Position numbers and translations under genes: made by a program. The notes beneath the pieces were generated by a model. The model had not been told where the DNA came from, made no database searches, and was given only the letters and a program-made list of their open reading frames with translations. From Planctomycetaceae bacterium (GTDB lineage Bacteria > Planctomycetota > Phycisphaerae > Phycisphaerales > UBA1924): a stretch of DNA of 64,000 nucleotides. Position 1 is the stretch's first letter. Every line of letters starts with the position of its first letter. Below are positions 2,220 to 21,833 of this stretch, one piece after another. The stretch lies in the NCBI GenBank assembly GCA_021294835.1, contig JAJTDF010000003.1:25662-89661 (forward strand). Reading direction: 5' to 3'.

Positions 2220-3512
2220 TCATTTGCCGGCGGTCGGCTGCGGCTCGCCCGCGCCCGGGGCCGCTGATCCGGCCGGTCCGCCCGTGGCCCCGCCCGCGGG
2301 CACCTCCGCCACCAGCGCACCCTCGAACAGCTTGAAGCTGCCGTCGGCCGCCACCTTGTCCCCTTCGTTCAATCCGCTCAGCACGATGGTCCGGTTGCCC
2401 ACCGCCGGGCCGAGTTTCACCAGCCGCTGGCGGGCCCGCTGCTTGGCGGGGTCCTTCGGGTCCGGCCCGACCATGAAGACGTGGTCGCCGAACGAGGCCC
2501 GTCGCACCGCTGTGCTCGGCACCGTCAGCATTCTCTGCTCATCCCCCACTGGCACCGAGATGTCCACGAACATGCCCGGCTTCAGCCGCCCGGCCGAGTT
2601 GTCCACCACGCCCCGCACGCGAACGTTCCGCGTCCCGCTGTCCACTGTTGCATCAATCGCCGACACCGTGATGGTCACCGGTTCGGCCCCCAGCACCTCC
2701 GACACCGCCTGCACCGCATCGCCCACCTTCACCCGGCTGATCTGCTCCTGAGGGATGGCGAAGTCCAGGAAGATGTCCGGCGTGATCTCCTGCAGGGCCA
2801 CCACCTGAGAACCTTCGGCCAGATACTGCCCCGGATGCGTCGACCGGATGCCCGCTCTGGCCTGGAATGGCGCCCTGATGGTCTTCTTGGCGATCTGCGC
2901 CTGCACTTGGGTCACCCGCGCCCGCGACTGATCCAGTTCCGCCGACACCCGCTGTACCGTCGCCCGCTCGCGCTCCATGTCCGCTCTGGCCCGGTCCAGG
3001 TTCGCCGCAGCCCGGTCAACATCGCTGCGGGCCACTGCCGCCGATTGGCTGGCCTGCTGATTCCGCTCCAGTTCCGCCTGTGCAAAGCGAACATCCACCT
3101 CCGCCACCTTCACGTTCGCCTGCGCCACCTCCAGCGCCGCCTCGGCCAGCCGCACCGCCGCTTGTGCCGCCACCAGATCCGCCCGCTCGCTGGTGGCGTC
3201 CAGCCGCAGCAATTCCTCACCCGCATCCACCGTCACGCCGGAGTCAAAGCCGACATATTCAACCACGCCGGCCAGTTCATTGCTGACCATCACCGACCGC
3301 TTGGCCACCACATTGCCCACAAGCCTCGCCGTCGGCCGCCAGGCCGTCCGCTCCGCAGAGACCGTCACCACCGCCGTCGGCATCTCCGGCATCTGCTGCT
3401 GCACTGCCGACTGATTCATCCAATGCCGCCACCACGCCACACCGCCTGCAGTGACCGCCAGGAGGCCGAACATGACCCCAATCCCGACAACACGCTTGGT
3501 ATCCAACTGCAT
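2220..3512 (-). CDS. Efflux RND transporter periplasmic adaptor subunit (HlyD/MFP family)
   Basis: ORF 2220..3551; N-terminal TM then SVMVSNELAGVVEYVGFDSGVTVDAGEELLRLD lipoyl half, coiled-coil hairpin and GLKPGMFVDISVPV barrel. Start MQLDTKRVVG chosen. Directly upstream of the RND permease. Confidence 0.9.
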   Translation of the reverse strand: MQLDTKRVVGIGVMFGLLAVTAGGVAWWRHWMNQSAVQQQMPEMPTAVVTVSAERTAWRPTARLVGNVVAKRSVMVSNELAGVVEYVGFDSGVTVDAGEELLRLDATSERADLVAAQAAVRLAEAALEVAQANVKVAEVDVRFAQAELERNQQASQSAAVARSDVDRAAANLDRARADMERERATVQRVSAELDQSRARVTQVQAQIAKKTIRAPFQARAGIRSTHPGQYLAEGSQVVALQEITPDIFLDFAIPQEQISRVKVGDAVQAVSEVLGAEPVTITVSAIDATVDSGTRNVRVRGVVDNSAGRLKPGMFVDISVPVGDEQRMLTVPSTAVRRASFGDHVFMVGPDPKDPAKQRARQRLVKLGPAVGNRTIVLSGLNEGDKVAADGSFKLFEGALVAEVPAGGATGGPAGSAAPGAGEPQPTAGK

Positions 3513-3800
3513 GCTCCTCCCCGCCCGCAGGGCCTTGCCGGCCGCACGCACGGCCGTCGCAGCCCGTGCAGGGGAACATTCTTGACGGACCGAACCGAAC
3601 GGTCAACAAACAGCCGGCAGAAACCACGCCCCCCGCTGCCGCTCTTGCGCGGTCTTTACCCCAGACTCGGCTGATTTTGCCGCACAGCCCTCAAGTGTGC
3701 CGATTGCCCTTTCACGCCCGGGACGACGGCTGTGTAGCCAACGACCACGGGCGAACGTCCAACCAACGGTCAGAAGAGCCGTTTTTCAGGAGAGCCACGC

Positions 3801-4292
3801 ATGGCAGACAACAACACAGGCAAGGAAATGACCGTCATCGGCGCCGACACCCTGATCCGGGGCGAGATGACCTTCACCGGCTCGGCCCGCATCCTCGGCC
3901 GCTTTGAAGGCAAAATCCACTCCCAGGGCCGTGTCGAGATCGGTCAGACCGCTGAGTGCAAGGCCAGCGTCGAGGCCGGCACCATCATCGTCGACGGCGT
4001 CATCGAGGGCGACGTCATCGCCCACGAGCGACTGGAACTTCGAGGCACCTCCCAGATCCGCGGCGATCTCACCGCCGCCAAGCTCGTCGCCAGTGAGGGC
4101 GCCAGCTTCACCGGTCAGTGCTCCGTCGGCGCTGAGGCCGTCAAGAACGTCAAGAGCATGGGTGATGCCGCCCTTCGCGCCCCCGTCCGCACTTCGGTCA
4201 CCACCACCGCCGACGGCGACAACGTCATCGCCGGGCTGGAAAGCAAGCTCGCCGGCTTCGCCCGTTCCAAGGCCGTCGCCGCCGCCGAGTAA
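3801..4292 (+). CDS. Bactofilin (polymer-forming cytoskeletal protein)
   Basis: MTVIGADTLIRGEMTFTGSARILGRFEGKIHSQGRVEIGQTAECKASVEAGTIIVDGVIEGDVIAHERLEL: repeated short beta-solenoid rungs typical of bactofilins. Confidence 0.9.
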   Translation: MADNNTGKEMTVIGADTLIRGEMTFTGSARILGRFEGKIHSQGRVEIGQTAECKASVEAGTIIVDGVIEGDVIAHERLELRGTSQIRGDLTAAKLVASEGASFTGQCSVGAEAVKNVKSMGDAALRAPVRTSVTTTADGDNVIAGLESKLAGFARSKAVAAAE

Positions 4293-4479
4293 TCGCCGCT
4301 CGACCCGCTCTGCTGCGGGTTGAACACGTGACTTCTCTCTCCTCCTCGTCCCGATGCGGCCCCTGCCGCACGGGGACGGGGCGGCCGCCCCGGGCATTCC
4401 GCACGGAGCTTCCGCCCCGTTCCCGTGCCAGACACATCCGCACACGGCACGACCCGAGGCGCCCAAGGAGCCGTCCGCG

Positions 4480-4935
4480 ATGCCCTCCGGTGCACACTCA
4501 ATGACCAAGCCTCTCACCCGCGTGGTCCGGTGCCTGCACTGTGCCGCGGCGTTTCGGGTTCCCGACGCCGCCACCGTGCTCACCTGCCCGACGTGCTACC
4601 AGCGCGTTCGGGTTGAGGATGTCGTGGTTGAAAACGAGCTGGTGCTCCCCAGGCTCGAAACCTGCGGACGCATCGTCATCCGCCGACGCGGACGCCTCTA
4701 CACCCGGCTTGGTGTCCGTGCCAGCCTCGGCGTCGAGGTTCTGGGCGAACTTCAAGCCGAAACCGTCAACAGTTGCCGAGTCTACATAGGCCCGCAAGCC
4801 ACTTTCAGGGGCGACTGCCAGGCCGGAGGCATCACCGTAGAAACCGGAGCCACGATCCTCGGCGGCCGTTTTCAGATCGACCGCAACCTCCTGGACCCTT
4901 CCGAAACCCACACCGCCGCCTCCTGCAGGGCCTGA
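4480..4935 (+). CDS. Zinc-ribbon plus bactofilin-like beta-solenoid protein (start 4480 or 4501)
   Basis: RCLHCAAAFRVPDAATVLTCPTCYQRVRV (two CxxC) followed by RIVIRRRGRLYTRLGVRASLGVEVLGELQAETVNSCRVYIGPQATFRGDCQAGGITVETGATILGGRFQI. Confidence 0.7.
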   Translation: MPSGAHSMTKPLTRVVRCLHCAAAFRVPDAATVLTCPTCYQRVRVEDVVVENELVLPRLETCGRIVIRRRGRLYTRLGVRASLGVEVLGELQAETVNSCRVYIGPQATFRGDCQAGGITVETGATILGGRFQIDRNLLDPSETHTAASCRA

Positions 4936-7403: not shown

Positions 7404-7431
7404 AAGCCCCGATCCCAAAGGACCGGGGCTT
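7404..7431 (-). terminator. Rho-independent terminator, 3' of the giant gene
   Basis: AAGCCCCGATCC-CAAA-GGACCGGGGCTT stem with one mismatch; on the - strand it is followed by TTTCTTTG. Confidence 0.75.
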
Positions 7432-7473: not shown

Positions 7474-10400
7474 TTACCGCACGCCGAAGATGCGGCGGAG
7501 CAGCAGCTCGCTATTCTGCTGACCGAGGAAGAACTGCGTGCCGGAGTTCACCGAACCCTGGCCGGCCAGAGCGCGGCTGAGGTTCAGGTACCGCGGGCCG
7601 GTGCCCGCGACCGTCGTCGCCGGCGGCAGCGGCTGAGCGCCGACCTCGGGAATCGGCCGCAGGGCCGCCGCGTTGCCGGTGTCGCCCATCGTGTCGGTCA
7701 CAACGGCGTCCGGGGTGGCCGGGTTGCCGTCGGTGTCGATGGTGAACAACCCGGTCGGAGCGGTGATACGCAGACCCAGCAACTCGCCGACCTGACGGCC
7801 GACGATGTACGTGAGCTGACGGATGAACCGGTCAACGCCATCAGCCGAGGGCGAGTTGCCCAGAGCGTTCAGCGACGGCATGAACACCACGCCCTGATCG
7901 GTGCGACGGGCGTTGAACGGGTCGGAGCCCTCGGTGGCCCCGAACGTGCCGTTGTTGAAGAACGCCGGCGGCTCAAAGCTGCCGGACAGGATCACCGTGC
8001 TGGTCCGATCGCGTTCGGTCGAGAAGTCGGCGGCATTGGCGCTGAACCGCACGGTGTTGGCCGGCAGATTGGTCACACTGGTCGGCGTTCCGTTGAACAG
8101 TTGGTTCAGCGAGGCGATCAAGCCCGGCTGGTTGCGGTTGGCGTTGCCATTGAGGATGTAGTCCAGGATCGACTGCGACCCGATCAGGCCGGTGAACCCG
8201 TTGATCGACGGGTCATAGGCGGCCAGATTGGTGAGGCGACCGCCGGTCTCCAGCCAGTTGACGATGGCGCCGCGGGTCTCGATGAGGATGTTCTGCGGGC
8301 GGGTCTGCGGGACCGGGCTGATCGACGCCAGCTGCACGATCTCCACGCCGTAATCCGACTGGATGGCGCCCTGCACGTACACGGCGAACGAACCGGGGCG
8401 GGTGGCCGAGCCCTGCGACGGGGGCACAGTGAACTCGATGTAGTAGTCGCCGTTGGCGTCATAGCCGTACTTGGTCGTCTCGCTCTCACCCACCACGCGG
8501 TTGGGCGTGGGGTTGAGCAGGTCGATCTCCGAGGGCGAGGCCAGCAATTGGCCGTTGGCCAATTGATCCGCAACGGTGCGTTCGAACAGACCGAACTGGA
8601 CGAATCCCCGCAGGTCACGCAGCCGCAGACCGATCTGGTTGTTCAGTTCAAACTGCTCGGGAACCTGCGAGCCGAAGTTGCCGCCGTTCTGCTGCACCTT
8701 CAGAGTTACGCGATAGCGCGTGCCGGGCAGAATGGCCTGGCCGCCGTTGAGGTTGAACACATCCACATCGGGCCGGGTCTCGCGAGGTGCGCCCTTGCCG
8801 CCGATCTCGCCCGTCGCACCGTTGACGGTCAGGATGTCGCCGTTTGCCACACCGTCGAACCGCCCCGTGGTCGGGTTGGCCCGGTACTCGATGATCTGGC
8901 CGCCGGTGGAGACGCCCCGGACGATGTCGTCCGACCGGACGGTTCCGGCACCGTTGCCCTCGAACTTGCCGTTGGCGCCGGGGTCGAGCGTGAACCGCCA
9001 CTCACCAATGGTGATCGACGGAGTCGCCGTCGGTCCGGCGAGCACCGACGGCAACTGGGCCGTCGGCGTGCCGGCGGGAGCAAAGTCGTTCGGACGGGGC
9101 GGCGTGACCAGATCGATCCCCGAGGCCGAAGCCGAGGCGATCGTGATCACATCATCCCCGTTGCCGAACACACCGTCAACGCCGGGTGTTCGGACCACGT
9201 TCATGGTGCCGGTGGTGCCCACCACCGCCGTGTTGTGCTGCAACGCCACGGAGGTGATTACGTCGTCGTTGGTCCCCAGCACGTTGTCGATGCCCGCGGC
9301 ACGGGTGACGCGTGCCAAGCCGTTGTCACCAGTGATCGTGTCGTCGGCGCCCCCCGGACCGTTGAGGTTCAGCGTGAAATCGAAGTTCACGCCCACGGTG
9401 GCCGCACGCGTCACCACGCCGGCGCCGAAGTCCGCCGGAACCGGCAGATTCGCGACGGTGTTCCCGCCGGCGACCGAGGACGCCGGCACCGTGCCCTGTC
9501 GCAGCCGATACACCACCGAGGGTCCCAGCGGAGACGCCACCGTGATGCCGTTTGCCAGTTCGCCCGCGGTGTCAAAGTCCGCTGGCACAGGAACCGAGCC
9601 CGCCGGCACCGTACTCAGCACCTTGGTATCCGGCGTGATGATGTCATCGGCAGTGTTGAAGATCCGGTCCGGACCGGCCGTCCGGGTGACCACCACGTTG
9701 TTTGCGTTGGCGCCGATGATCACGTCGTCATTGACGCCGTTGTGAATACCGCGGATGCGATCCCCGCCCGCGTCCAAGAAGAAGTCGAACGGGGCGCCGA
9801 CCGACGAATTGACGTTGACGATGTTCCCGTCGGAGAACAAGTCGCTGTAAGGCAGCGGAGCCGCCACCACCGCGTCCCGCTCCGGCAGGCCGACGGTCGA
9901 CCGCGACACCAGAGCCCCCTCGACAAAGCTCAAGGAGAGCACGCCGTTGGTGCCGAACACGATATCGTCGCCCACCAGCGGGTCCGGCGCGTTGCGGATG
10001 CCGTCGGCACCCGGCAGCAGCGTCCACGTCCACACCGAGCCGTCGCTCGAGAGTGTCCGCACGGTGCTGCCCAAGCTCGGGAAGTTCGCCAGCGAGGCCT
10101 CAGGCGCATCGGTGATCGGCACCGCCGCCGGCTCGTTGACCGACGAGGTGATCACGTCGTCACCGTCGCCGAGGATGTTGTTGGCCCCGGCGGTGCGGGT
10201 GATGACCGTGCCGATATTGGTACCGCGGATGATGTCGTCGTTCACGCCGCCGTTCAGGCCGCGGACTCCATCGGCGCCGAGGTTCAGGACGAATTGGAAA
10301 TCCGGGCCGGTTGACGCGGTGCGGGTCACCACGCTGGCGGGCGTCGCAAAGTCTGCGTTCCCCGGCAGGTTCGCCGGCGTGTTACCGCCCGCCACCGTCG

Positions 10401-13400
10401 CCGCAGCCTGGAGCAGCGTCAGGGTGATCTGGTCATCGGCGGTGCCGAAGATCAGGTCAGCGCCCGCACGCCGCTCCACACGCACCAGCGCGGGGCCCGC
10501 GCCGCCGTCGCTGCTCTCGCCGATCAGCACGTCGTCGTTGCTGTCGTCGCCGGTGCCCACGATCCCGTCGGTGCCGGGGTTCAAGTTGGCGATGCCGTCC
10601 GGGCCGACGTTGTACGTGAAGGCGAAGAACGAGTCGCCCGCTATCGCCGGCATGAAGTGAGTCTGCGTGAGCGGGAACTGCGCTGCGCTGCTGATCGGTA
10701 CCGAGGCGGTCGGAGCGCCCAGGCCGTTAGCCAGCGGACGTCCGGCGAAGCCGCTGTTGCGGTCGTCGCTGATGGTGATGGAGAAGTCGTAGCTGCCCGT
10801 CGCCAGCGGCGCCGGAGCCACGTTCACCACGGCCACGTCCAGCAGTGGAGACGGCGTGAACTGCGTCGGCAGGAATGCCGGATTGACATCCGCGGAGGTG
10901 GTACCCAGCGGATCGCGTGAGCCCACGTACAGCACGTACTGACCGGTCTGCTGTACGAGGAAGATCTGGTCGCCGTTGACGTCGCCCGCTTCCGGGTCGC
11001 TCACCGGAAGTGCCTGAAGTGCGCCGGTCGCCGTCGCCAGCTGCCCCGGGCCCTGGCCCGTCGTGTCCATCTTCAGCAGGTTCACCGCTGCCGCCACCGC
11101 GTTGCCGCGGAGGGCGCCCAGCCGGATGATCTGGCCGGCCTGCAGCGTGATCGAATACAGGTCAACATCCGAACCACTCAGGTTCGTCGCGCTGGTGTCG
11201 GGATGATCACCCAGCACGCCTCGCAGCGTGTAAGTGCGGCCCACTGCCGGCAGGGCGCCGGCGCGACCCGAGTCGCTCATCATCACATCCAGGCTGGCCG
11301 GATCGGTGTACGTCACGAGCGTCGGGCCGGCGACCCCGGTGCCCGCGAAGAATCTGTCGCCGACGTCGCCCACCGGCGTCACGAACCGATACCCGTCACC
11401 CGGAAGGCCGTCGGAGTTGCCGTCAATCGTGCCGTCCTGGTTGACTGCTCGCAGAGATGTGGACAGCTCGAACCGGTAAATGCCGGGACCGGCTTGGCTG
11501 GGCCGAGTGTCGAAGCCCGGCGTGTTGTTGATGTTGTTGCGGCTGGTGACAGCCTGGTTGAACACGATGATCGCCGTCCGCGTCGCCTCGTCGTACGACA
11601 CGCGGTAGTCCGGGTCCGAACCGGTGTTGCTGAGCACAAACTCGCGACCGTCGGCACGCACGTCGATGATCGACAGGGCCGACGCCGACGGGTTGGCCGG
11701 ATCGAACAGGCTCAGCGGATTGATCTGCTGGTTGAAGGTGATGCGAGCTGTGTACACCCGGGCGAACTCGGTCACCGTCAGGCTGACCACCTGAATGCCC
11801 GTCGCCACGGTCTCCAGGCGGGTCACGCGGAAGTTGCCCACGCCCTGCCCGTTGGCCAGCGACGTCGAGCCGCTGATCACCGAGGTGACGGTGCCGTTGG
11901 AGATCACGCGGTAGCTCTCGCTCTGCAGCTGAGAGCCGACAATGCCACCGGTGACACGAACGGTGCCGATGGTCGAACGGCCGTCCGAGGCGATGTCGTC
12001 GCGTGTGCCGAGGAAGCCGTCCACGCCGCGGCGTACGCCGGCCGCAACGTCAGACTGGATCATCTGGCCGGTGACCGTCACCGTCGTGATGTTGCCGTTG
12101 GTGGTCACATCGTCAGAGTTGACCGACGTGAACAAGCCGTCCGGGCCAAGGTCGGTGCCGGCGAGGATCGACGACTCGCGCATCACGCCGTTGACCGTGG
12201 TGGTGCGGATGTCATTGCGGGCGGAGACAAGGGCGTTCTCCATGCCTGTCGTCGTGACCGTCGTGAACGACCCGCCGCTGCGCAGCTGCGAGAAGACCAT
12301 CGGACCGGCGATGTTCACCGTCGTCACGTCCCGCAGGATGCTCACCGTGGTGCGGGTCAGGCCGGCGGGCGTGCCGGTGGCCCCCGTGGTACGGATCGTG
12401 CCCGCCGAGCGAGCCTCGATGCGGGCGTTGCCGCCGGATGGAGCGGAAATGCCGCCGGTTGCGTTCAGCGTGCCCAGGTTGCCGCCCACCAGCAGGTTCA
12501 GCCGGTTGGTCGACAGGTTCGGTGCCGCGCGGCCCACGTTGGCCGTCGTCAGGTCACCGCCGACCCGGATGTCGCCGGTGGTCACGGCGCCCCCGGTCAG
12601 GCCCAGCGTGCCCACGTTGCCGTCGACGTAGATGCCCGAGTCGCCGACGAACGGCAGGGCCGTCGTCAGTGTCGTGATCGTCACGTCATCGGAAGTGACC
12701 ACGTCGAAGTTGCTCAACTGGCTCGCCGGGGTCACCGAGCCCGGCTCGATCACCAGACTGCTGACGGTCGCCAGACGGGTCTGGTTAGCGCCGGTGCCGG
12801 CCGGAGCAGTCAGGCTGTTGCGGACGATGATCCGGTTGGTGTTCTGGTCATAGACCGCCGCCACATTCGCACCGGTCAGGCGGATGCGGATCGTTCCGGC
12901 TCCGCCGGGCAGAGTGACCTGCGTGACGGTGCCGTTGATCGGCAGCGCTGTGACGCCCGCGCCCACCGGCAACGCGCCGTTGAAGGCCACCGGCGAGTTC
13001 ACTGTGTTGGTGAATGCCTGCAACACCGAGGCCGCCGCCGAACCCGTCACGTTGGTCAGGCTGGTATCGGCCGCGATCGACACCCGTGCGTTGACCGCGG
13101 TGGAAACCACACCCGACACGCTCACCGTGCCGACCGTCGAGAGCCCTGGCACTGACAGTTCGTTGCTGTCGCCGGACGCATAGACCCCGTCATCGCCCGC
13201 CGTGGTGCCGGCGGTGATCGTCACCGTGTTGGTGCTCAGCGGGGCGGTTGAGTTGCGTCCCGTGATCGTCACGTTGCCCACGCGGCCCGCCTGCAGCGAG
13301 TCCGCATTGGCCCCGGCGCCGCCGGGGCGGCTGTCGGCGCCGAAGTTGGGCGAGAAGTCCGCGTTGCGCGAAGCCACGCCGCCGATGATCGCCAGGCCCT

Positions 13401-16400
13401 GCGCCCGGCCGCCGATGGTCACGGTGTTCACGCCGTCGCCCGCCGCGATGTAGCTCGCGGTGTTTCGAAGAGCCGTCACCGCGTCAGTCTGACTGTCGCT
13501 GAGCAGGTTGCCGGTGATGTTCACGGTCGCCAGCGTGCGGCCGGCGTAGATGCCGACCTCGAACGCCGAACCGGACGCTGTCACCGAGGAAATGTCCAGC
13601 CCGGCCCAGATGCGGGGACCGTCAATACCCGCAGTCGCGACCACGCCCGGAGGCAGTTGGTTGCGGAACGAGTCGCCCGTTACCGGCGTGTTGGATGCCA
13701 AGGTCGGATCGACGCCCAGGTTGCCGAAGGCGCCGCTGCCGGTCACAGCGATAGTGCCGATCGATCCATCGCGGGCGACGACCGAGCCGAACAGGTTGCC
13801 GTTGGTCACACGGACGGTGGTGATGTCGCCGTCGCGGGCCTCAACAGAGTTGCCCAGCGCCGAACGCCGGATCGAGCCGTTGGTGACCGTAACCGTGCCG
13901 ATGCCGCCGGAGTGGCTGAGGATCGACCCGCCGAAGTCGCCCACCACCGTCACGGTGGTGATGCGGCCGAAGGCGACAATCTGCGGATCGCCGATCTGGT
14001 CGGCGGCGCTCGAGCCCGGCAGGGCAAACGGGCGACGCACCGATCCGATGTTCACCGTGCCGATCGTCGACGCCGAACGCACATCCGCATTCAGCTGGGC
14101 CCCCGCCTTGAGCGTGGTGATCTTCCCGTCAACGTCGATCGCGTCCGGCGTGGAAACCACGTCACCCGAAGTGATCAGACGGCGGCCGATGCTGCCCTTG
14201 GCGTCCACCGTGCCCAGGTCGCGGCGAATGCGCAACGTCGCCAGCATGTCGCGGCCGGACCGCAGCGTGTTCAGGTTGCCGTCTGCGGTGTCGGTGGTTT
14301 CGATGCGGCCGCTGATGTCGCCGCTGGTCGTCGAGATCGTGCCGATCGTGCCGGAGGAGAAGATGTTGGCGTCGATCGAGTTGGTCGCCGTGATCGAGCT
14401 GATCCGGCCGTCCGGGCCCTCGGCCGAGATCTGACCGTTGATGATCGACCCGCGCACGGTGATGGTCTCGATCGGACCGGCGATCGTCAGCGTGGAGGAA
14501 CGGATGCTGCCCGATGCCGTCAGCGACCGCAGGCCGCCGGAGATGACCACAGTCGACCGCATGTCATTGGTCACCGTCATCGAGGTGATGCGGTTGTCCA
14601 CGCGGAAGTTCGAGCGGATGATGTCGCGGGCCGACACCGTGCCGGTGATGAAGCCGCCGACGTCCACGATGGCGTCGGAGATCACGCCGACCGAGGAGTT
14701 GGTGACCTGCAGATTGGCCATGTTGCCCGTGGTCTGGATCAGCAACTGACGGAACTCCAGCGGCTCGCCGCCGAGCGTGGAGTTGCGGAAGTTGTCCGCC
14801 GTGATGGTGCCGATGGTGCCCTGCGTGCGGTCGTCCGCCACCGGCTCGATGCTGCGGGCCTCGATGCGCGACGCATCGATGTTGCCGCCCACACGCTGGC
14901 CGTTGGACAGCGCCGAGGTGAAGCGCACGGTGCCGATGTTCTGGCCGTAGATCGTCGATCGGGTCAGGCTCACGCCCGTGCCCGTCACCGTGCCGATGCG
15001 GCCCGCGGGGATCTCGCTGTCGCCGATGTTCAGGTTTGTCTGCGAAGCGCGGGCCGAACGCCACCAGGCGTCGAACGCCGAGGCGCCGATGAACGCGCCG
15101 TCGATCCGGCCCGAGGTGATGTTCACCGAGTTGATGCCCAGCGGAGCCGCCGGCGTGCCCACGCCCGCCGAGATGATCAGACCCGAGATCACCGGGTTGC
15201 GCACCCGCGTGCCGCCCACCACGCTGTTGATCAGCGTGCTGGCCGCGACCGACGCCACCGGGAACGGGCTGTCGCCCGGCCCGATCAGGCCGTCGCCCAC
15301 GTCCACCGTGGTGATGGCCGCCGCGTAGATGTTGCCCACCAGACCGTCGAACCGGTTCTCGGCGGTGGAGTTGTCCGTGTTGGCCACCACCGTGCCCAGC
15401 ACGCCCGTTGCGCCCTGCAGAATCACGTCGCCGATGCTGCCCGAGGCCCGCACCGACACCACGTTGCCGCTCCGGACCACCAGGCCGTCCAGGAACGGAT
15501 CCATCACCGAGCCGAGATCTTCCAGACTGTTGCTTGTCGTGCCGGAATCCCAGTTGATCGGCACCACCACGTCGCTGCCGAAGCGGTTGCCGCCGCCGGC
15601 CACGTTGAATCCGGCCGGATCCACCCCCAGCGCTCCGCCGATGGCGTTCACCAGCCCGCCCGCGTTGCCCACCCGCTGGCCGAAGCGACGGTCGCCGATG
15701 CCCGGCGTATTCGTGCCCTGGCCGGCGTATTCCGTGCTGCCCAGGTTGCCGCGGGTCACCTCAAGGGTGTCCAGCGAGCCCGCGTCGACCATCACAAAGT
15801 CGCCGTTGACGGTGTTGTTGACGATCCGGGCCGCCCCGGTCACGTTCATCCGCAGAACATCGAACTCGGTGCCGGCGGGGCCGGTGAAGGTGATCGTGCC
15901 GGCGCGGGCCGTGCCGCCACCGCCGCCGCCGTCGACCGTGATGTTGATCAGGCCCAGCGCGATCACGCCGGGGGCCACGCCCGTGAAGGTCACGTTGCCG
16001 CCGGCGGGAACCGTGATGTCGATCCGACCGACGGTGATGCCCTGGCTGACATTCACCGGCAGATACCGCAACTGACCGCTGCCGCCCGTCGGCAGCGTCA
16101 CCGTGAAGCTGGCGCCGCTGTCATCCAGGAACACCTGGCTGGTGCCCGAGGGCAGCGGAAGGAAGGCATTCTCGTTCGGCGTCGCACCGCCGGTGCCCAG
16201 CGTCACATTTCCGCCGATCTGCGTGAAGCGGATGTCCGAGCCCGCACCCATCTGGATGGTCGGCTGGAACAGCGCCACGCGGCCGCCGATGATGAACCGG
16301 TCGATCCGCGAGTTGGCGCTGGTGGTGATGGTCACCGCCGGGCCATTCATGTCGTTGGTCGCGGACAGTTCGCCGATGTGGCCCGGCGTGCCGTTGTTGC

Positions 16401-19400
16401 CCGTCCGGATAACCACCGGGCCCGATGCGCCTGGCGTCTTGCGGGGCGTGCCGTTGGTCTGCACGCCGATGCCGCCGGCGAACACCATCGCGCCGATCTG
16501 CCCGCCCACCACGATGTTGCCCGCGTTGAAGTCGCCGTTGCCGGCCGCGAACAGGCCGAAGGCGTTGGTCGCCAGCGTGCCCAGGTTGCCGCCGATGGTC
16601 AGCGAGCCGGACTCAAAGTCGGCGCCGATCAGCACGCCGTGCACGTTGCTCTGAACGTTCACCACCAGACCGCGCATGCTGGCCAGATCGCGGGCGGACT
16701 CGATGGACACCGAGGTGATGCCGTTGGAGAACGCCTGGCTGGAGTCGCCGGCGACAAAGCCCGCGCCCACGCGGATCAGGCCCACGTCGCCCGAGGGCAC
16801 TGTGACCTGCGAACCGACTCGCGAGGTCGAGCCCGAGGAGTACATGCCCAGCGTCGTGGGCAGGTTGCCCGAGATCGTCGCGGTGTAGTCGATCGCCGTG
16901 CCGGTCTGGCCGGTGGCGGTGTCATCGGGGCTGGAGAGCACCAGGAAGTACACGTCCGTCCGCGTCGGCGTGAAGCGGAACCGGGCCGTGGTGATCTCCT
17001 GCGGGGACTGCGCCTGCGGATTGGCGAACGGGAACTGGTGCGTCGCCACCACATTGCCGTTGCGGTCCACCACGCGGGCGTAAACCCGCTCGCGGCTCTG
17101 CGGCTGAGGCGTCGGCGGCGGCGGATCGCGGAACTCGACGTTCAGCACCACTTCCTGGCCGACCCCGGCGGCGAACGCGAACGCGTCAGAGTTGTCCTCG
17201 TCGGTGTTCACGCCGTCACGCAGGCCCAGTCGCCCGTTGATGATCACACCCCGGTTGCCGGCGCCGACGAACTCGGCCCCGGTCAGCAGGTCGTTGCGGT
17301 ACACGCCGGCGCCGAACCACGCCGCCTGTCCCGCCGAGCCGTTGGCCCCCACCACCGCCCCGATGACCTGCCGCTGAGGATCCTGATTCGGCGGATCGAA
17401 GTTGAAGACCTGCTCCAATTCGCCGTACCGCAGGAAGTCCAGCCTCGCCAGCGTCGGATCGTTGATGTTGCCCTCAACGGTGATCGGCGTCGTCGCACGG
17501 CCGCCGATGAGGATCTGGCCAACTGTGCGGCCCACCACAATGGTGTTGCCTGTGGCGACCACCGGGTCGGTCGTCGCCTGAGCACCGGGCAACTGCCAGT
17601 TGCCCAGATCGCCGGCAACCACCAGCGTGCCCAGGTCGCCCCGGACGTCAAGCGAGCCGAGCATCACGCCCACGTCAAAGCGCCGCAGCGTGCCCGCAAC
17701 GGCGCTGGAGCCGAACAGCATGCCGTGGATGGAGACCGAGCCGAGGTTCTGGCCCACGCCGTCCACCGTGCCGGCAAAGATGCCCATCCGCAGCCCCGAG
17801 GGCAGAGCCCGGTCGCCGGGGAGGCCGTCGGTGAAGCGGCCGAACTGGTCGCGGGCATCCTCCAGCAACTGCCCGTTGTAATCCAGCAGAGCCGGCGCCA
17901 CGGCGCGGGCGGTGCCCGTCGGCACCAGTCCGCCGCTGAAGCCGCCCGGGCCCTGGTCCACCCGCACCAGATTGGCGCCCTGACGCACTGACGGCATGAT
18001 CGACGCGAACGCGATCTGCGTGTTCACGTTCGGGTTGACGCCGTGATAGGTCACCGGTGTCCGCGGATCGCGGACATACGGCGAGCCGATGATCACCGAC
18101 CCGGTGCCGATCGGCAGCCCCCCGGGGTTGGTCCCGCCCTGGGCGCCCTGCCCGTTCGGGAAAGCCAGTCCGAAGCCGCCCTGCTGAATGTCCCCGTAGA
18201 TGCCCTGCACGCTGTCGGGCAGCACGAACACGATGTTCTGGTTGGCGTCCTCCTCGACGGTGCCGCCGATGAAGGTGATGCCGCTGGTCGAACTCACGCC
18301 CAGCAGATCCACCCGCCCGATGCCGTCGTTGAAGTCGGGCACGCCGTCGCCGTTGAGGTCGACATTGAGCACCTCGCCGTCACCGCCGTTGCCCAGCGTG
18401 AGGGTGTTCTGCAGGGCCCGTCCGTACGTGTCCTGAACGAACGCGTTGGCGAAGAAGCCGATGACGTTGTCGATCTGGATCTGGTCAGCCGTCGTCGTGA
18501 TCGCCGGCGCGTTGGGGGCCGCCGGGTTCACCGAGGGCTGACGCCGCAAGATCCGCACCGTGTCAAAGCCCTGGTCATTACGGATCATCAACTGCAGGCT
18601 GCCCGCATCACCCGTCGCCTGATTGATGAACTGTGCAGCGAGATTCGGGTCCTGCAGGAACACGTCATCGGTCAGTTCCAGCACCTGGCGACCGTCGGCA
18701 AGCTTGAACGGCACCAGCGTGCCGTTCCGGAACAACTGAATCGACGTGAACTGGTCGAGGCCGTCGGTGCCCGTATTCGGCAGGGTCAGGCCGAAGGCGG
18801 TCATGACGCGGGCCGTCTGCAACTGGCCCGCAGGGGGCATGAACTGCAGATCCACCGTCTGCGTGCCGCCCACGCTGAACGTCAGCGCCTGGTTCTGCGC
18901 TGCGCCGGCGAGCGGGGCAAGCTGGCTGGCGCTCAGACCGAGCGTCGGCACATCATCGGTGTTCCGACGCACCAACAGCCGCGAGCTCAGGCCGTTGCGA
19001 GTCGTCGCCGGGAAGGCGTACACGCCCGTCGAACTGCTCGTCAGGCTCGAGTTGTCGAACTGCTCAAGGCCGAACAGCGAGCGGCCCGAGACCGCCATCT
19101 GAGCGCCGAAGATGCGGGCGTCGACCGTCTGGTTGAACCGCGAGGGCGCAAACACGCCGGAGATGGCGTCGATGAAGATCGTGTCGGTGCCGGCCACCGC
19201 CGCGCCGCCGCCCAGGGTGTTGCGGGTGAACTCGATGGTGTCGAAGAACGCGAACTGATCCTCAGGAGCCCCGCCCTGCGCCGGCGTCGCCCGGCTGATC
19301 ACAATGTCCGACGTCGGCGGATCCGGCACCGGGTTGGCCGTCTGCCGGGCGAAGCGGAACTGCGAGGTGACATCCAGCCCGCGATACAACAGCCGGATGC

Positions 19401-20274
19401 GGGTGGCGCCCGTCTGGATGCCGTTCGCGTCGAAAGTCAGCTGGGCGTCCATGTTGGTGTCGGGCTGACCCGCCACCGTCGCCGTTGAGAGCGTGACCGT
19501 CGCACCGGCCATCGGCCGCTGCCGACCGATGCCGCTGGCGGTCTGCGCAGGGCTGTACCGGCTCGCACCGCCCCCGTTGAGCAGTTCCGGGTTGCTCGTC
19601 GCCGTGCCGTAGCTGAAGCTGACCACCGGCGCGATGTTCACGCCCCCCACGTTCTGCGCCGTCAGTGTGAACCGCACGCCCGCGCCGCTGGACGAGGTGC
19701 CGCCGCCGGCCGGCGGGTTGGTCACCAACGCCGGGGCGTTTCCGCCCGGAGCAGCCGCATAGTTGTAATACCGAAGCCGCAGACGCGACTCGCCCTCAAA
19801 CGCGCCCGCCGCCGGGCCGTTGCCCGACCGCAGGCCCCCCGCCGGCGCCGCGCCCAGCGTGTACTGCGTCACCACCGTGTTCGGCGTGGTCACACCCGCT
19901 GTGCCGGGCTCGTCGTTGAAATCCTCAGCCACGGACTGAAACGGCTGGAACGCCTGAATATCTCGCGACAGCATCGGCACCAGGTAGCCGAACTGCGTCG
20001 TCACACTGGCGCCGTTCGGCACACCCTGACGAGGCAGCGTCACCACGTTGTTGCCGCCGAACACCAGGTTCGTGCCCGGAATCGCCTGTCCGGCCGCCCC
20101 GATCGGCGGCAGGATCGTCGCACCGAACATCAGTTGCCGAGCCTCAAGCTGCTCCAGTGGAGTCGCCGCCTCATCCGTACCCCCCGCTCGGGACAGAAGC
20201 TCGCGTGCATTCGAGGCGGGCTGGGCAGATTGATTCTTCAGCAGATCACCCAGCAGCTTCACGATCGTCTTCAT
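7474..20274 (-). CDS. Giant (~4,266 aa) secreted/surface beta-solenoid-like protein with planctomycete LEPRxLL-like N-terminal motif
   Basis: ORF 7474..20301, start MKTIVKLLGDLL at 20274. N-term ATPLEQLEARQLMFGATILPP, hundreds of short rungs such as IGTVTVTNGSIRRSALG / ITTVRVTNGNLFGSVVA, EF-hand-like DLNGDGVPDFND and Asp-rich GxDxIxGTxDDxI repeats. Confidence 0.85.
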   Translation of the reverse strand: MKTIVKLLGDLLKNQSAQPASNARELLSRAGGTDEAATPLEQLEARQLMFGATILPPIGAAGQAIPGTNLVFGGNNVVTLPRQGVPNGASVTTQFGYLVPMLSRDIQAFQPFQSVAEDFNDEPGTAGVTTPNTVVTQYTLGAAPAGGLRSGNGPAAGAFEGESRLRLRYYNYAAAPGGNAPALVTNPPAGGGTSSSGAGVRFTLTAQNVGGVNIAPVVSFSYGTATSNPELLNGGGASRYSPAQTASGIGRQRPMAGATVTLSTATVAGQPDTNMDAQLTFDANGIQTGATRIRLLYRGLDVTSQFRFARQTANPVPDPPTSDIVISRATPAQGGAPEDQFAFFDTIEFTRNTLGGGAAVAGTDTIFIDAISGVFAPSRFNQTVDARIFGAQMAVSGRSLFGLEQFDNSSLTSSSTGVYAFPATTRNGLSSRLLVRRNTDDVPTLGLSASQLAPLAGAAQNQALTFSVGGTQTVDLQFMPPAGQLQTARVMTAFGLTLPNTGTDGLDQFTSIQLFRNGTLVPFKLADGRQVLELTDDVFLQDPNLAAQFINQATGDAGSLQLMIRNDQGFDTVRILRRQPSVNPAAPNAPAITTTADQIQIDNVIGFFANAFVQDTYGRALQNTLTLGNGGDGEVLNVDLNGDGVPDFNDGIGRVDLLGVSSTSGITFIGGTVEEDANQNIVFVLPDSVQGIYGDIQQGGFGLAFPNGQGAQGGTNPGGLPIGTGSVIIGSPYVRDPRTPVTYHGVNPNVNTQIAFASIMPSVRQGANLVRVDQGPGGFSGGLVPTGTARAVAPALLDYNGQLLEDARDQFGRFTDGLPGDRALPSGLRMGIFAGTVDGVGQNLGSVSIHGMLFGSSAVAGTLRRFDVGVMLGSLDVRGDLGTLVVAGDLGNWQLPGAQATTDPVVATGNTIVVGRTVGQILIGGRATTPITVEGNINDPTLARLDFLRYGELEQVFNFDPPNQDPQRQVIGAVVGANGSAGQAAWFGAGVYRNDLLTGAEFVGAGNRGVIINGRLGLRDGVNTDEDNSDAFAFAAGVGQEVVLNVEFRDPPPPTPQPQSRERVYARVVDRNGNVVATHQFPFANPQAQSPQEITTARFRFTPTRTDVYFLVLSSPDDTATGQTGTAIDYTATISGNLPTTLGMYSSGSTSRVGSQVTVPSGDVGLIRVGAGFVAGDSSQAFSNGITSVSIESARDLASMRGLVVNVQSNVHGVLIGADFESGSLTIGGNLGTLATNAFGLFAAGNGDFNAGNIVVGGQIGAMVFAGGIGVQTNGTPRKTPGASGPVVIRTGNNGTPGHIGELSATNDMNGPAVTITTSANSRIDRFIIGGRVALFQPTIQMGAGSDIRFTQIGGNVTLGTGGATPNENAFLPLPSGTSQVFLDDSGASFTVTLPTGGSGQLRYLPVNVSQGITVGRIDITVPAGGNVTFTGVAPGVIALGLINITVDGGGGGGTARAGTITFTGPAGTEFDVLRMNVTGAARIVNNTVNGDFVMVDAGSLDTLEVTRGNLGSTEYAGQGTNTPGIGDRRFGQRVGNAGGLVNAIGGALGVDPAGFNVAGGGNRFGSDVVVPINWDSGTTSNSLEDLGSVMDPFLDGLVVRSGNVVSVRASGSIGDVILQGATGVLGTVVANTDNSTAENRFDGLVGNIYAAAITTVDVGDGLIGPGDSPFPVASVAASTLINSVVGGTRVRNPVISGLIISAGVGTPAAPLGINSVNITSGRIDGAFIGASAFDAWWRSARASQTNLNIGDSEIPAGRIGTVTGTGVSLTRSTIYGQNIGTVRFTSALSNGQRVGGNIDASRIEARSIEPVADDRTQGTIGTITADNFRNSTLGGEPLEFRQLLIQTTGNMANLQVTNSSVGVISDAIVDVGGFITGTVSARDIIRSNFRVDNRITSMTVTNDMRSTVVISGGLRSLTASGSIRSSTLTIAGPIETITVRGSIINGQISAEGPDGRISSITATNSIDANIFSSGTIGTISTTSGDISGRIETTDTADGNLNTLRSGRDMLATLRIRRDLGTVDAKGSIGRRLITSGDVVSTPDAIDVDGKITTLKAGAQLNADVRSASTIGTVNIGSVRRPFALPGSSAADQIGDPQIVAFGRITTVTVVGDFGGSILSHSGGIGTVTVTNGSIRRSALGNSVEARDGDITTVRVTNGNLFGSVVARDGSIGTIAVTGSGAFGNLGVDPTLASNTPVTGDSFRNQLPPGVVATAGIDGPRIWAGLDISSVTASGSAFEVGIYAGRTLATVNITGNLLSDSQTDAVTALRNTASYIAAGDGVNTVTIGGRAQGLAIIGGVASRNADFSPNFGADSRPGGAGANADSLQAGRVGNVTITGRNSTAPLSTNTVTITAGTTAGDDGVYASGDSNELSVPGLSTVGTVSVSGVVSTAVNARVSIAADTSLTNVTGSAAASVLQAFTNTVNSPVAFNGALPVGAGVTALPINGTVTQVTLPGGAGTIRIRLTGANVAAVYDQNTNRIIVRNSLTAPAGTGANQTRLATVSSLVIEPGSVTPASQLSNFDVVTSDDVTITTLTTALPFVGDSGIYVDGNVGTLGLTGGAVTTGDIRVGGDLTTANVGRAAPNLSTNRLNLLVGGNLGTLNATGGISAPSGGNARIEARSAGTIRTTGATGTPAGLTRTTVSILRDVTTVNIAGPMVFSQLRSGGSFTTVTTTGMENALVSARNDIRTTTVNGVMRESSILAGTDLGPDGLFTSVNSDDVTTNGNITTVTVTGQMIQSDVAAGVRRGVDGFLGTRDDIASDGRSTIGTVRVTGGIVGSQLQSESYRVISNGTVTSVISGSTSLANGQGVGNFRVTRLETVATGIQVVSLTVTEFARVYTARITFNQQINPLSLFDPANPSASALSIIDVRADGREFVLSNTGSDPDYRVSYDEATRTAIIVFNQAVTSRNNINNTPGFDTRPSQAGPGIYRFELSTSLRAVNQDGTIDGNSDGLPGDGYRFVTPVGDVGDRFFAGTGVAGPTLVTYTDPASLDVMMSDSGRAGALPAVGRTYTLRGVLGDHPDTSATNLSGSDVDLYSITLQAGQIIRLGALRGNAVAAAVNLLKMDTTGQGPGQLATATGALQALPVSDPEAGDVNGDQIFLVQQTGQYVLYVGSRDPLGTTSADVNPAFLPTQFTPSPLLDVAVVNVAPAPLATGSYDFSITISDDRNSGFAGRPLANGLGAPTASVPISSAAQFPLTQTHFMPAIAGDSFFAFTYNVGPDGIANLNPGTDGIVGTGDDSNDDVLIGESSDGGAGPALVRVERRAGADLIFGTADDQITLTLLQAAATVAGGNTPANLPGNADFATPASVVTRTASTGPDFQFVLNLGADGVRGLNGGVNDDIIRGTNIGTVITRTAGANNILGDGDDVITSSVNEPAAVPITDAPEASLANFPSLGSTVRTLSSDGSVWTWTLLPGADGIRNAPDPLVGDDIVFGTNGVLSLSFVEGALVSRSTVGLPERDAVVAAPLPYSDLFSDGNIVNVNSSVGAPFDFFLDAGGDRIRGIHNGVNDDVIIGANANNVVVTRTAGPDRIFNTADDIITPDTKVLSTVPAGSVPVPADFDTAGELANGITVASPLGPSVVYRLRQGTVPASSVAGGNTVANLPVPADFGAGVVTRAATVGVNFDFTLNLNGPGGADDTITGDNGLARVTRAAGIDNVLGTNDDVITSVALQHNTAVVGTTGTMNVVRTPGVDGVFGNGDDVITIASASASGIDLVTPPRPNDFAPAGTPTAQLPSVLAGPTATPSITIGEWRFTLDPGANGKFEGNGAGTVRSDDIVRGVSTGGQIIEYRANPTTGRFDGVANGDILTVNGATGEIGGKGAPRETRPDVDVFNLNGGQAILPGTRYRVTLKVQQNGGNFGSQVPEQFELNNQIGLRLRDLRGFVQFGLFERTVADQLANGQLLASPSEIDLLNPTPNRVVGESETTKYGYDANGDYYIEFTVPPSQGSATRPGSFAVYVQGAIQSDYGVEIVQLASISPVPQTRPQNILIETRGAIVNWLETGGRLTNLAAYDPSINGFTGLIGSQSILDYILNGNANRNQPGLIASLNQLFNGTPTSVTNLPANTVRFSANAADFSTERDRTSTVILSGSFEPPAFFNNGTFGATEGSDPFNARRTDQGVVFMPSLNALGNSPSADGVDRFIRQLTYIVGRQVGELLGLRITAPTGLFTIDTDGNPATPDAVVTDTMGDTGNAAALRPIPEVGAQPLPPATTVAGTGPRYLNLSRALAGQGSVNSGTQFFLGQQNSELLLRRIFGVR

Positions 20275-20741
20275 GCCGGACTCCAAGTGCAAGCGAACCA
20301 CCCGGCGTGCGCCGGTCTATCCCACGAGCGAGCTTCACGGGACCCATGTCCCGACGCGAACAACTCCCGCCCCCACCCGTGCGGGAGGCAAACATAGCCG
20401 CCGGCGTTCATCCCTGCACGGGATCTCCACGCCCTTCCGGATTCCCCGCCTGTACCCATCCAGACGCCCCGCCGCCTGACGCACCGCCTGCCACCCTGCC
20501 CGCTCCACCCCCGCTGCCCGCCCGAAGTCCGCCGTGGCGCGGCACATACCCCCCGCCAACCCAGCGGACAGCCACAGGCTGGTTCGCCTCCAACCCAAAT
20601 CCGGTTCCCAAACCCCATCACTCATCATCTCAGATTCCCCAACAACACATCCACACCTACCGACACCCCCCGCCGCACGCGATCTCCTCCGCCTGCTTCT
20701 GCTGCCCAGCCACCCACCCTGCCGATGCATCTCAGTATTCC

Positions 20742-21833
20742 ATGTCCACCCCGATTGACCAGGCCGTTGAACCCCTCTCTCACGCCGTTGCCGGATTGCC
20801 CTGGGGCGTCCACGCCGCCGCCGCCGGCATGTTCGTCGCCGGGCTGATCCTCTGGCTCCTCGGCCGGCGGGTGCTCCAGCCGGCCACCGTGCTGCTGGGA
20901 GCCGCCATCAGTGCCGCAGTCGGCTATCTCCTCCTCCCCAGCATGGCCGGTCAGCAGGTCGGCCCACTCGCCCCCATCCTCGGCCTGGTGGTCGGGGCCA
21001 TCGCCGGCGCCTTGGCCGCCGCCCTGCTCTACCGCCCGCTGATCGCCGCCTTGTTCGGTATCGTTTTGGGTTGCGCTGTCGCGCTCACCGTCTCCGCAGT
21101 GCTCTCTGTCACCCGCGGAGGCCCCCTGCTCCCGGCCGCCGCCTTGAGCACCCCCGATCGCCCCTTTGCCCTCTCCCGTGTCGACCCCCCCGGCTCCGGC
21201 CTTGGCGGCGAAGAACTCCCGCCCAAGCCCACGGTCCCTCAGGACGGCCCGGAGGCCGAGCCCTCCGACGAGCCGCCCCCGGCACCGGCCTCTCCCGCCA
21301 TCACCCCCCCCGCCACCAGCCCCAAGGCCAAGCCGGCCCCGAACCCACCGGCCGAAGTTGCCGACTCCCGGCCCACCGCCGCCGCCGATCAGGCCGCTGA
21401 TCCGAACACTGCCGCCTCCTGGAAAGCCGCCGGCCAGGCCGTTGGCCGATTCACCCGCTCACTGAGCGACTGGTCGCGCCGGTGGTGGACCAGCCTGCCC
21501 GCGTCTGAACGCACGCTGGTCGGCATGGGCTGGCTTGCTGGCGCCGCCATCGGGCTGGTGGTCGGTCTGGTCTGGCCCGCTCGCGCCGCCGGAGTGATCA
21601 CCGCCGCTGTCGGCTCGGCCCTCTTCCTGGCCTGCGGGACCTGGCTCGCCCACGCCACCGCCATGCCCGGACGCCACGCGCTGGAGCTTCCCGCCGCCGC
21701 CTGGTCGCTGATCTGGCTGGTCGCCAGCCTGATCGGCATCGCCGTGCAGTGGCACGGCCTTCGCGCCGTGGACGAGCCTGACGAGCAGGCTCCGCCGCCC
21801 CGCGCCAAGCGAAAGAAGAAGGCCGCCGCCTGA
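20742..21833 (+). CDS. Multi-pass membrane protein of unknown function
   Basis: MSTPIDQAVEPLSHAVAGLPWGVHAAAAGMFVAGLILWLLGRRVLQPATVLLGAAISAAVGYLLLP...; several hydrophobic segments flanking a Pro/Ala-rich linker. Upstream extension of the track ORF rejected. Confidence 0.65.
   Translation: MSTPIDQAVEPLSHAVAGLPWGVHAAAAGMFVAGLILWLLGRRVLQPATVLLGAAISAAVGYLLLPSMAGQQVGPLAPILGLVVGAIAGALAAALLYRPLIAALFGIVLGCAVALTVSAVLSVTRGGPLLPAAALSTPDRPFALSRVDPPGSGLGGEELPPKPTVPQDGPEAEPSDEPPPAPASPAITPPATSPKAKPAPNPPAEVADSRPTAAADQAADPNTAASWKAAGQAVGRFTRSLSDWSRRWWTSLPASERTLVGMGWLAGAAIGLVVGLVWPARAAGVITAAVGSALFLACGTWLAHATAMPGRHALELPAAAWSLIWLVASLIGIAVQWHGLRAVDEPDEQAPPPRAKRKKKAAA

Follow-up and report, generated by a model that had tools for sequence, protein, structure and literature searches.

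A giant gene in the 64,000-nucleotide stretch of planctomycete DNA analyzed here (the window) likely encodes an exported surface rod bearing a pseudoprotease, a domain that binds or assembles and does not cut. Homology places its product in an orthologous family that has so far gone unrecognized. Searches of Pfam, NCBIfam, and PDB sequences with the whole protein gave no reliable match. We judged beta-lactamase matches (E 0.03 over 75 residues) to be chance, and in NCBIfam neither the window protein nor the N-termini of three homologues gave anything save one chance match at E 0.077. Among planctomycete papers on LEPR-XLL, giant proteins, pseudoproteases, and metzincins, those searched provide general background and do not describe this family. 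Table 1 lists the features of the locus.

Table 1. Features of the giant gene and its product, in window coordinates.
Feature	Residues	Window position	Strand	Basis or remark
Whole coding sequence	4,266 aa from ATG	7474..20274	-	Open reading frame; single orthologue in each of 83 genomes
Intrinsic terminator 3' of the gene		7404..7431	-	12-bp stem, then T run
LEPR-type N-terminal motif, PLEQLEARQLMF	48-59	20125..20160	-	Family alignment and known planctomycete export motif (PMC8567305)
EF-hand-like loop, VDLNGDGVPDFNDGIG	646-662	18316..18366	-	Conserved positions in family
Predicted beta-solenoid (rung region)	~933-2830	11812..17505	-	Sequence and AF2 model of a segment inside
AF2-modeled segment, all-beta solenoid	1860-2240	13582..14724	-	pLDDT 85.2, pTM 0.83
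Calcium-loop-like segment, DLGPDG / RGVDGFLGTRDD	2715-2770	11992..12159	-	Near-invariant G/D positions
PPC-like domain (approximate)	~3040-3175	10777..11184	-	Pfam PPC match in relative L054, E 1.5e-4, short of the curated cut-off
Genus-specific repeat expansion	3226-3760	9022..10626	-	Length comparison and internal repeats
C-terminal pseudo-metzincin domain	4000-4275	7477..8304	-	Profile-profile match to intact zincins
Lost zinc site, GRQVGELLGLRIT, replacing xHExxHxxGxxHx	4168-4180	7762..7800	-	0/83 family copies keep HExxH

The frame opens with an ATG at 20274 and closes with a stop at 7474-7476. An in-frame GTG at 20301 is an alternative start that would give 4,275 residues, and residue numbers here count from this GTG. 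The protein contains no cysteine and 0.3% lysine. The initial annotation had placed the frame exactly; the strand, which it left unstated, is minus. It had also raised the worry that the frame might be an assembly artifact. Antisense frames are long in the GC-rich DNA of the window, as shown by one of 1,444 aa on the plus strand, and the assembly to which the window belongs is a draft in 170 contigs, so a chance open frame or an artifact deserved consideration. Because antisense frames can be this long, we used homology and not length to judge whether the gene is real. Same-frame homologues are present in 83 genomes, several on single-contig chromosomes, with internal stops in none of the 83 copies, and close pairs show dN/dS values well below 1. 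A same-genus genome that was assembled independently conserves the same frame (4,213 aa, 49% identity). Orthologues in independent assemblies refute the artifact concern, and we consider a chance or artifactual origin next to inconceivable. By these comparisons, the frame is a real single-copy planctomycete gene with a product of ~4,270 residues.

Whole-genome searches identified a homologue in 83 of the 163 genomes of f1, our label for the window's bacterial family (Phycisphaerales; f3, f4, f5, and so on denote other bacterial families). Each of these genomes has one copy. The gene is present in 59 of 112 good-quality f1 genomes and in 37 of 74 genera. One f1 copy is divided between two contigs, and some frames end at contig edges. 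Most complete f1 copies have frames of 3,000-3,700 aa, and lengths of 4,200 aa occur only in the window's genus. Across the full length, 40 aligned sequences have ~3,200 residues in common, and 350 columns are conserved at 90% or above.

The family extends beyond f1. Profile searches detected the solenoid core in several families of the class besides f1 (f4, f10, f13, f15, f16, and f25), where core-bearing giants are mostly 2,500-4,300 aa long and many carry a C-terminal zincin. Full-length relatives with an intact protease site were found in f4 and further families of the class. The pheA locus of 17 f1 genomes without the gene held no diverged copy, three of these stretches being short. When presence and absence were mapped onto a pheA tree, the label changed 3 times, compared with 12.8 times when labels were shuffled. 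This pattern and the orthologues in sister families fit vertical inheritance of the gene, with ancestral presence followed by a few losses. Its absence from half of the f1 genomes suggests that the giant protein is not essential to the lineage.

In many genomes, the giant gene lies downstream of pheA and the nuo cluster, with bactofilin genes on its opposite side; a bactofilin is found downstream in 14 of the loci examined. The window itself has a bactofilin on the plus strand at 3801-4292 (PF04519, E 2.8e-26) and a second bactofilin-like frame with a weaker match at 4354-4935 on the same strand. Between the giant gene and pheA, a divergent plus-strand gene at 20742-21833 encodes a protein of 363 aa that is probably a membrane protein and matches no Pfam family. 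When we looked beside the giant gene for one that might encode a dedicated partner, only housekeeping and bactofilin synteny emerged.

The N-terminus resembles a motif associated with export in planctomycetes. The sequence LEQLEARQLMF (residues 49-59) matches ExLExRxLL within the first ~60 residues, in agreement with the planctomycete N-terminal motif that had been suggested earlier. L52, E53, and R55 each show at least 90% conservation within the family, and in an alignment of 24 sequences ExLExRxL[LM]F is near-constant, with the L, E, and R of LExR invariant. The planctomycete motif RRLxxExLExRxLLA is regarded as an export signal (Studholme et al. 2004, as cited in PMC8567305). Eight of the 10 longest proteins in Tuwongella immobilis bear this motif and are considered probably surface exposed (PMC8567305). 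The window's genome encodes five further proteins with a LEPR-type N-terminus. Based on these proteins and on the likeness to the planctomycete motif, we infer that the giant protein is exported and located at the surface. It resembles other motif-bearing planctomycete giants in its type of N-terminal motif, its very large size, and its repetitive beta-rich sequence, but differs from them at large in that its orthologues form a family with one copy per genome, a constant architecture, and a pseudo-metzincin at the C-terminal end. Pfam searches detected no C-terminal beta-barrel or RTX/T1SS domain of the kind found in autotransporter or RTX type I adhesin families.

The middle ~1,900 residues are predicted to form a long beta-solenoid rod. 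The array of short rungs described in the initial annotation is present, and strands recur every ~9-10 residues in its regular part. The annotation's suggestion of a beta-helix was supported by structure prediction, which gave a confident beta-solenoid for a segment within the array (Table 1) from an alignment of only three sequences. Comparing this model with the PDB using Foldseek produced nothing significant (best E 0.22), and a comparison with a viral library gave a best E of 0.0056 with a very low, unconvincing TM-score. The top PDB matches were an ice-binding protein (5uyt), a Ca-dependent antifreeze protein (3p4g), CsgA (8c50), and a hemopexin-binding protein (4rm6). Like the modeled segment, these are all-beta solenoids of short repeats, but none reached an E below 0.2 and TM-scores were at most ~0.3-0.4, so we do not claim a relation.

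Two segments of the protein may bind calcium. The EF-hand-like loop noted earlier, DLNGDGVPDFND, maps to residues 648-659, and D648, G653, P655, N658, and G660 each reach 90% conservation or more among family members. The DLGPDG segment near the end of the rung region is the other candidate. Beyond the rod, the assignment of a PPC-like domain (PF04151) draws on matches of relatives (E 1.5e-4 and 0.031) that both fall short of the Pfam cut-off, and the window protein itself has no match.

The extra length of the window copy comes mainly from a ~520-aa repeat expansion seen only in the window's genus. This region spans 535 aa in the window protein and 487 aa in its same-genus relative, compared with 81-118 aa in five other sequences and 3-21 aa in most relatives. 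Its internal repeats are degenerate, with local alignment scores of 177-181 against a shuffled maximum of 67. Residues 451-600 form a second stretch with poor occupancy in relatives.

The "distinct C-terminal module" of the initial annotation is real, and its profile identifies it as a decayed metzincin. We compared an f1-only alignment, chosen to avoid bias, with 14 zincin domains that have intact sites, most of them from ~400-aa proteins of the class. The two profiles aligned with their sites in register (hhalign probability 98.75%, E 1.4e-16, 197 columns). All 14 of the intact domains match Matrixin, and fragilysin and MMP structures were also matched. When the last ~270 aa of the giant protein are aligned with a sister-family orthologue, VVAHEAAHTLGLRHA in the orthologue stands opposite IVGRQVGELLGLRIT in the window protein. 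The annotation had reported no obvious catalytic domain and so missed the homology of these residues to metzincins with an intact HExxHxxGxxH. An AF2 model of the C-terminal 436 aa built from three sequences reached a pLDDT of 40, and the assignment of a metzincin fold thus rests on sequence profiles. Querying the PDB with a profile built for the dead domain returned only a spidroin match that we judged to be chance.

The active site has been replaced in a consistent manner. HExxH is found in none of the 83 f1 copies, whereas all 12 giants compared from other families have HExxHxxGxxH. In f1, the site reads [RQ][RQHT]xx[EQ]xxGxxx, with a conserved R-x-x-x-E. The position of the first histidine is occupied by R in 80 copies and Q in 3, that of the catalytic glutamate by R in 70, Q in 6, H in 5, and T in 2, and that of the second histidine by E in 78 and Q in 5; the third histidine is kept in only one copy. 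Though homologous by profile to metzincins of the matrixin, fragilysin, and archaemetzincin-like types (PF00413, NF033823), the domain differs from them in the replacement of its zinc ligands and catalytic glutamate in all 83 f1 copies. With these residues substituted, it should be unable to cut by the metzincin mechanism. The Met-turn motif xMAxNS is absent from the window copy and was found in 22 of 83 f1 copies by a rough motif count. The D and N of the SDPFN scaffold are retained in all 83 dead copies; in the other copies, D is present in 13/13 and N in 12/13. dN/dS for the dead domain is 0.15-0.28 in the eight closest pairs, with 0.41 for one pair farther apart, and these values resemble those of the remaining gene. 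Substitution patterns thus indicate that the dead domain is maintained by purifying selection and is not decaying.

Elsewhere in the class, the zinc site is commonly intact. Twelve more distant core-bearing loci comprised five with the full motif, one with HExxH but Asn at the position of the third His, and others that either lack the domain or are themselves incomplete. Together with the comparison giants, this survey suggests that most domain-bearing relatives outside f1 and f3 keep the site. One f3 locus (L069, G003:C119) has a zincin site that decayed differently, AKELAKTFGLREI, and may represent an independent loss of catalysis. We also observed a 12,094-aa open frame in the same order (L124 and L123, G015:C13, family f5) with an N-terminal LEPRILL and two intact HExxHxxGxxH sites at offsets 6025 and 11997, which is a still larger relative in kind. 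Frames of 6,318-7,175 aa with intact C-terminal zincins occur at L132, L133, and L134 (G010, G039, and G016), and the stretches fetched for these loci gave no match to the f1 full-length profile. Frames of ~300-500 aa that have intact zincin sites and lie in neighboring pairs (L092, L094, L095, L098, L102, and L104), often as two adjacent copies, are common across Phycisphaerae.

We propose the following model for the family. The LEPR-type motif would take the giant protein out of the cytoplasm. The solenoid would form a rod with calcium-loop-like segments, followed at its C-terminal end by PPC-like/beta domains and the metzincin fold. Because the core is found across families and many giants end in a zincin, the ancestor was probably an exported giant, a rod tipped with an active zinc protease. 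Catalysis was probably lost once or twice, in f1 and f3. In the f1 lineage, substitution of the zinc ligands and catalytic glutamate would have left a dead domain that was retained as a stable binding or assembly module on the surface rod. The Arg...Glu pair, spaced i, i+4, would probably form a helix salt bridge at the former zinc position, and the domain may bind a ligand. A more specific version, in which f1 turned the terminal protease into a neofunctionalized capture domain that binds its former substrate, or else a partner, and leaves it uncut, with the fixed Arg...Glu pair replacing zinc, seems to us possible but short of probable.

Two other readings of the C-terminal domain were considered. 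The protein could be a plain structural giant, an adhesin or envelope rod whose C-terminal domain has no ligand and serves the solenoid merely as a cap for folding or as a passenger in export. An adhesin or envelope function, as proposed in the initial annotation, is plausible; the solenoid makes up most of the protein, and the C-terminal domain is conserved for fold and not for catalysis. A mere cap, however, would not need Arg in 80 of 83 and Glu in 78 of 83 copies at former ligand positions, and the related giants L193-L195 do without the domain. We regard this reading as unlikely. Still less credible is continued enzyme activity of the domain through an unconventional active site that has been rebuilt. 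Such an enzyme could account for the near-fixed R/E replacement and the purifying selection, but none of the three zinc ligands remains, the general base is also lost, and most copies lack the Met-turn. We favor the model of a surface rod whose terminal pseudoprotease binds or assembles.

Giant genes of planctomycetes have been tallied by size (e.g., PMC5177795), and their products have rarely been grouped by orthology and given a proposed function. A pseudo-metzincin fixed over dozens of bacterial genera looks unusual. The family described here has a defined architecture, is conserved across its class, and allows the change from protease to pseudoprotease to be traced, with active sister copies as a reference; these properties make the role of such giants testable.
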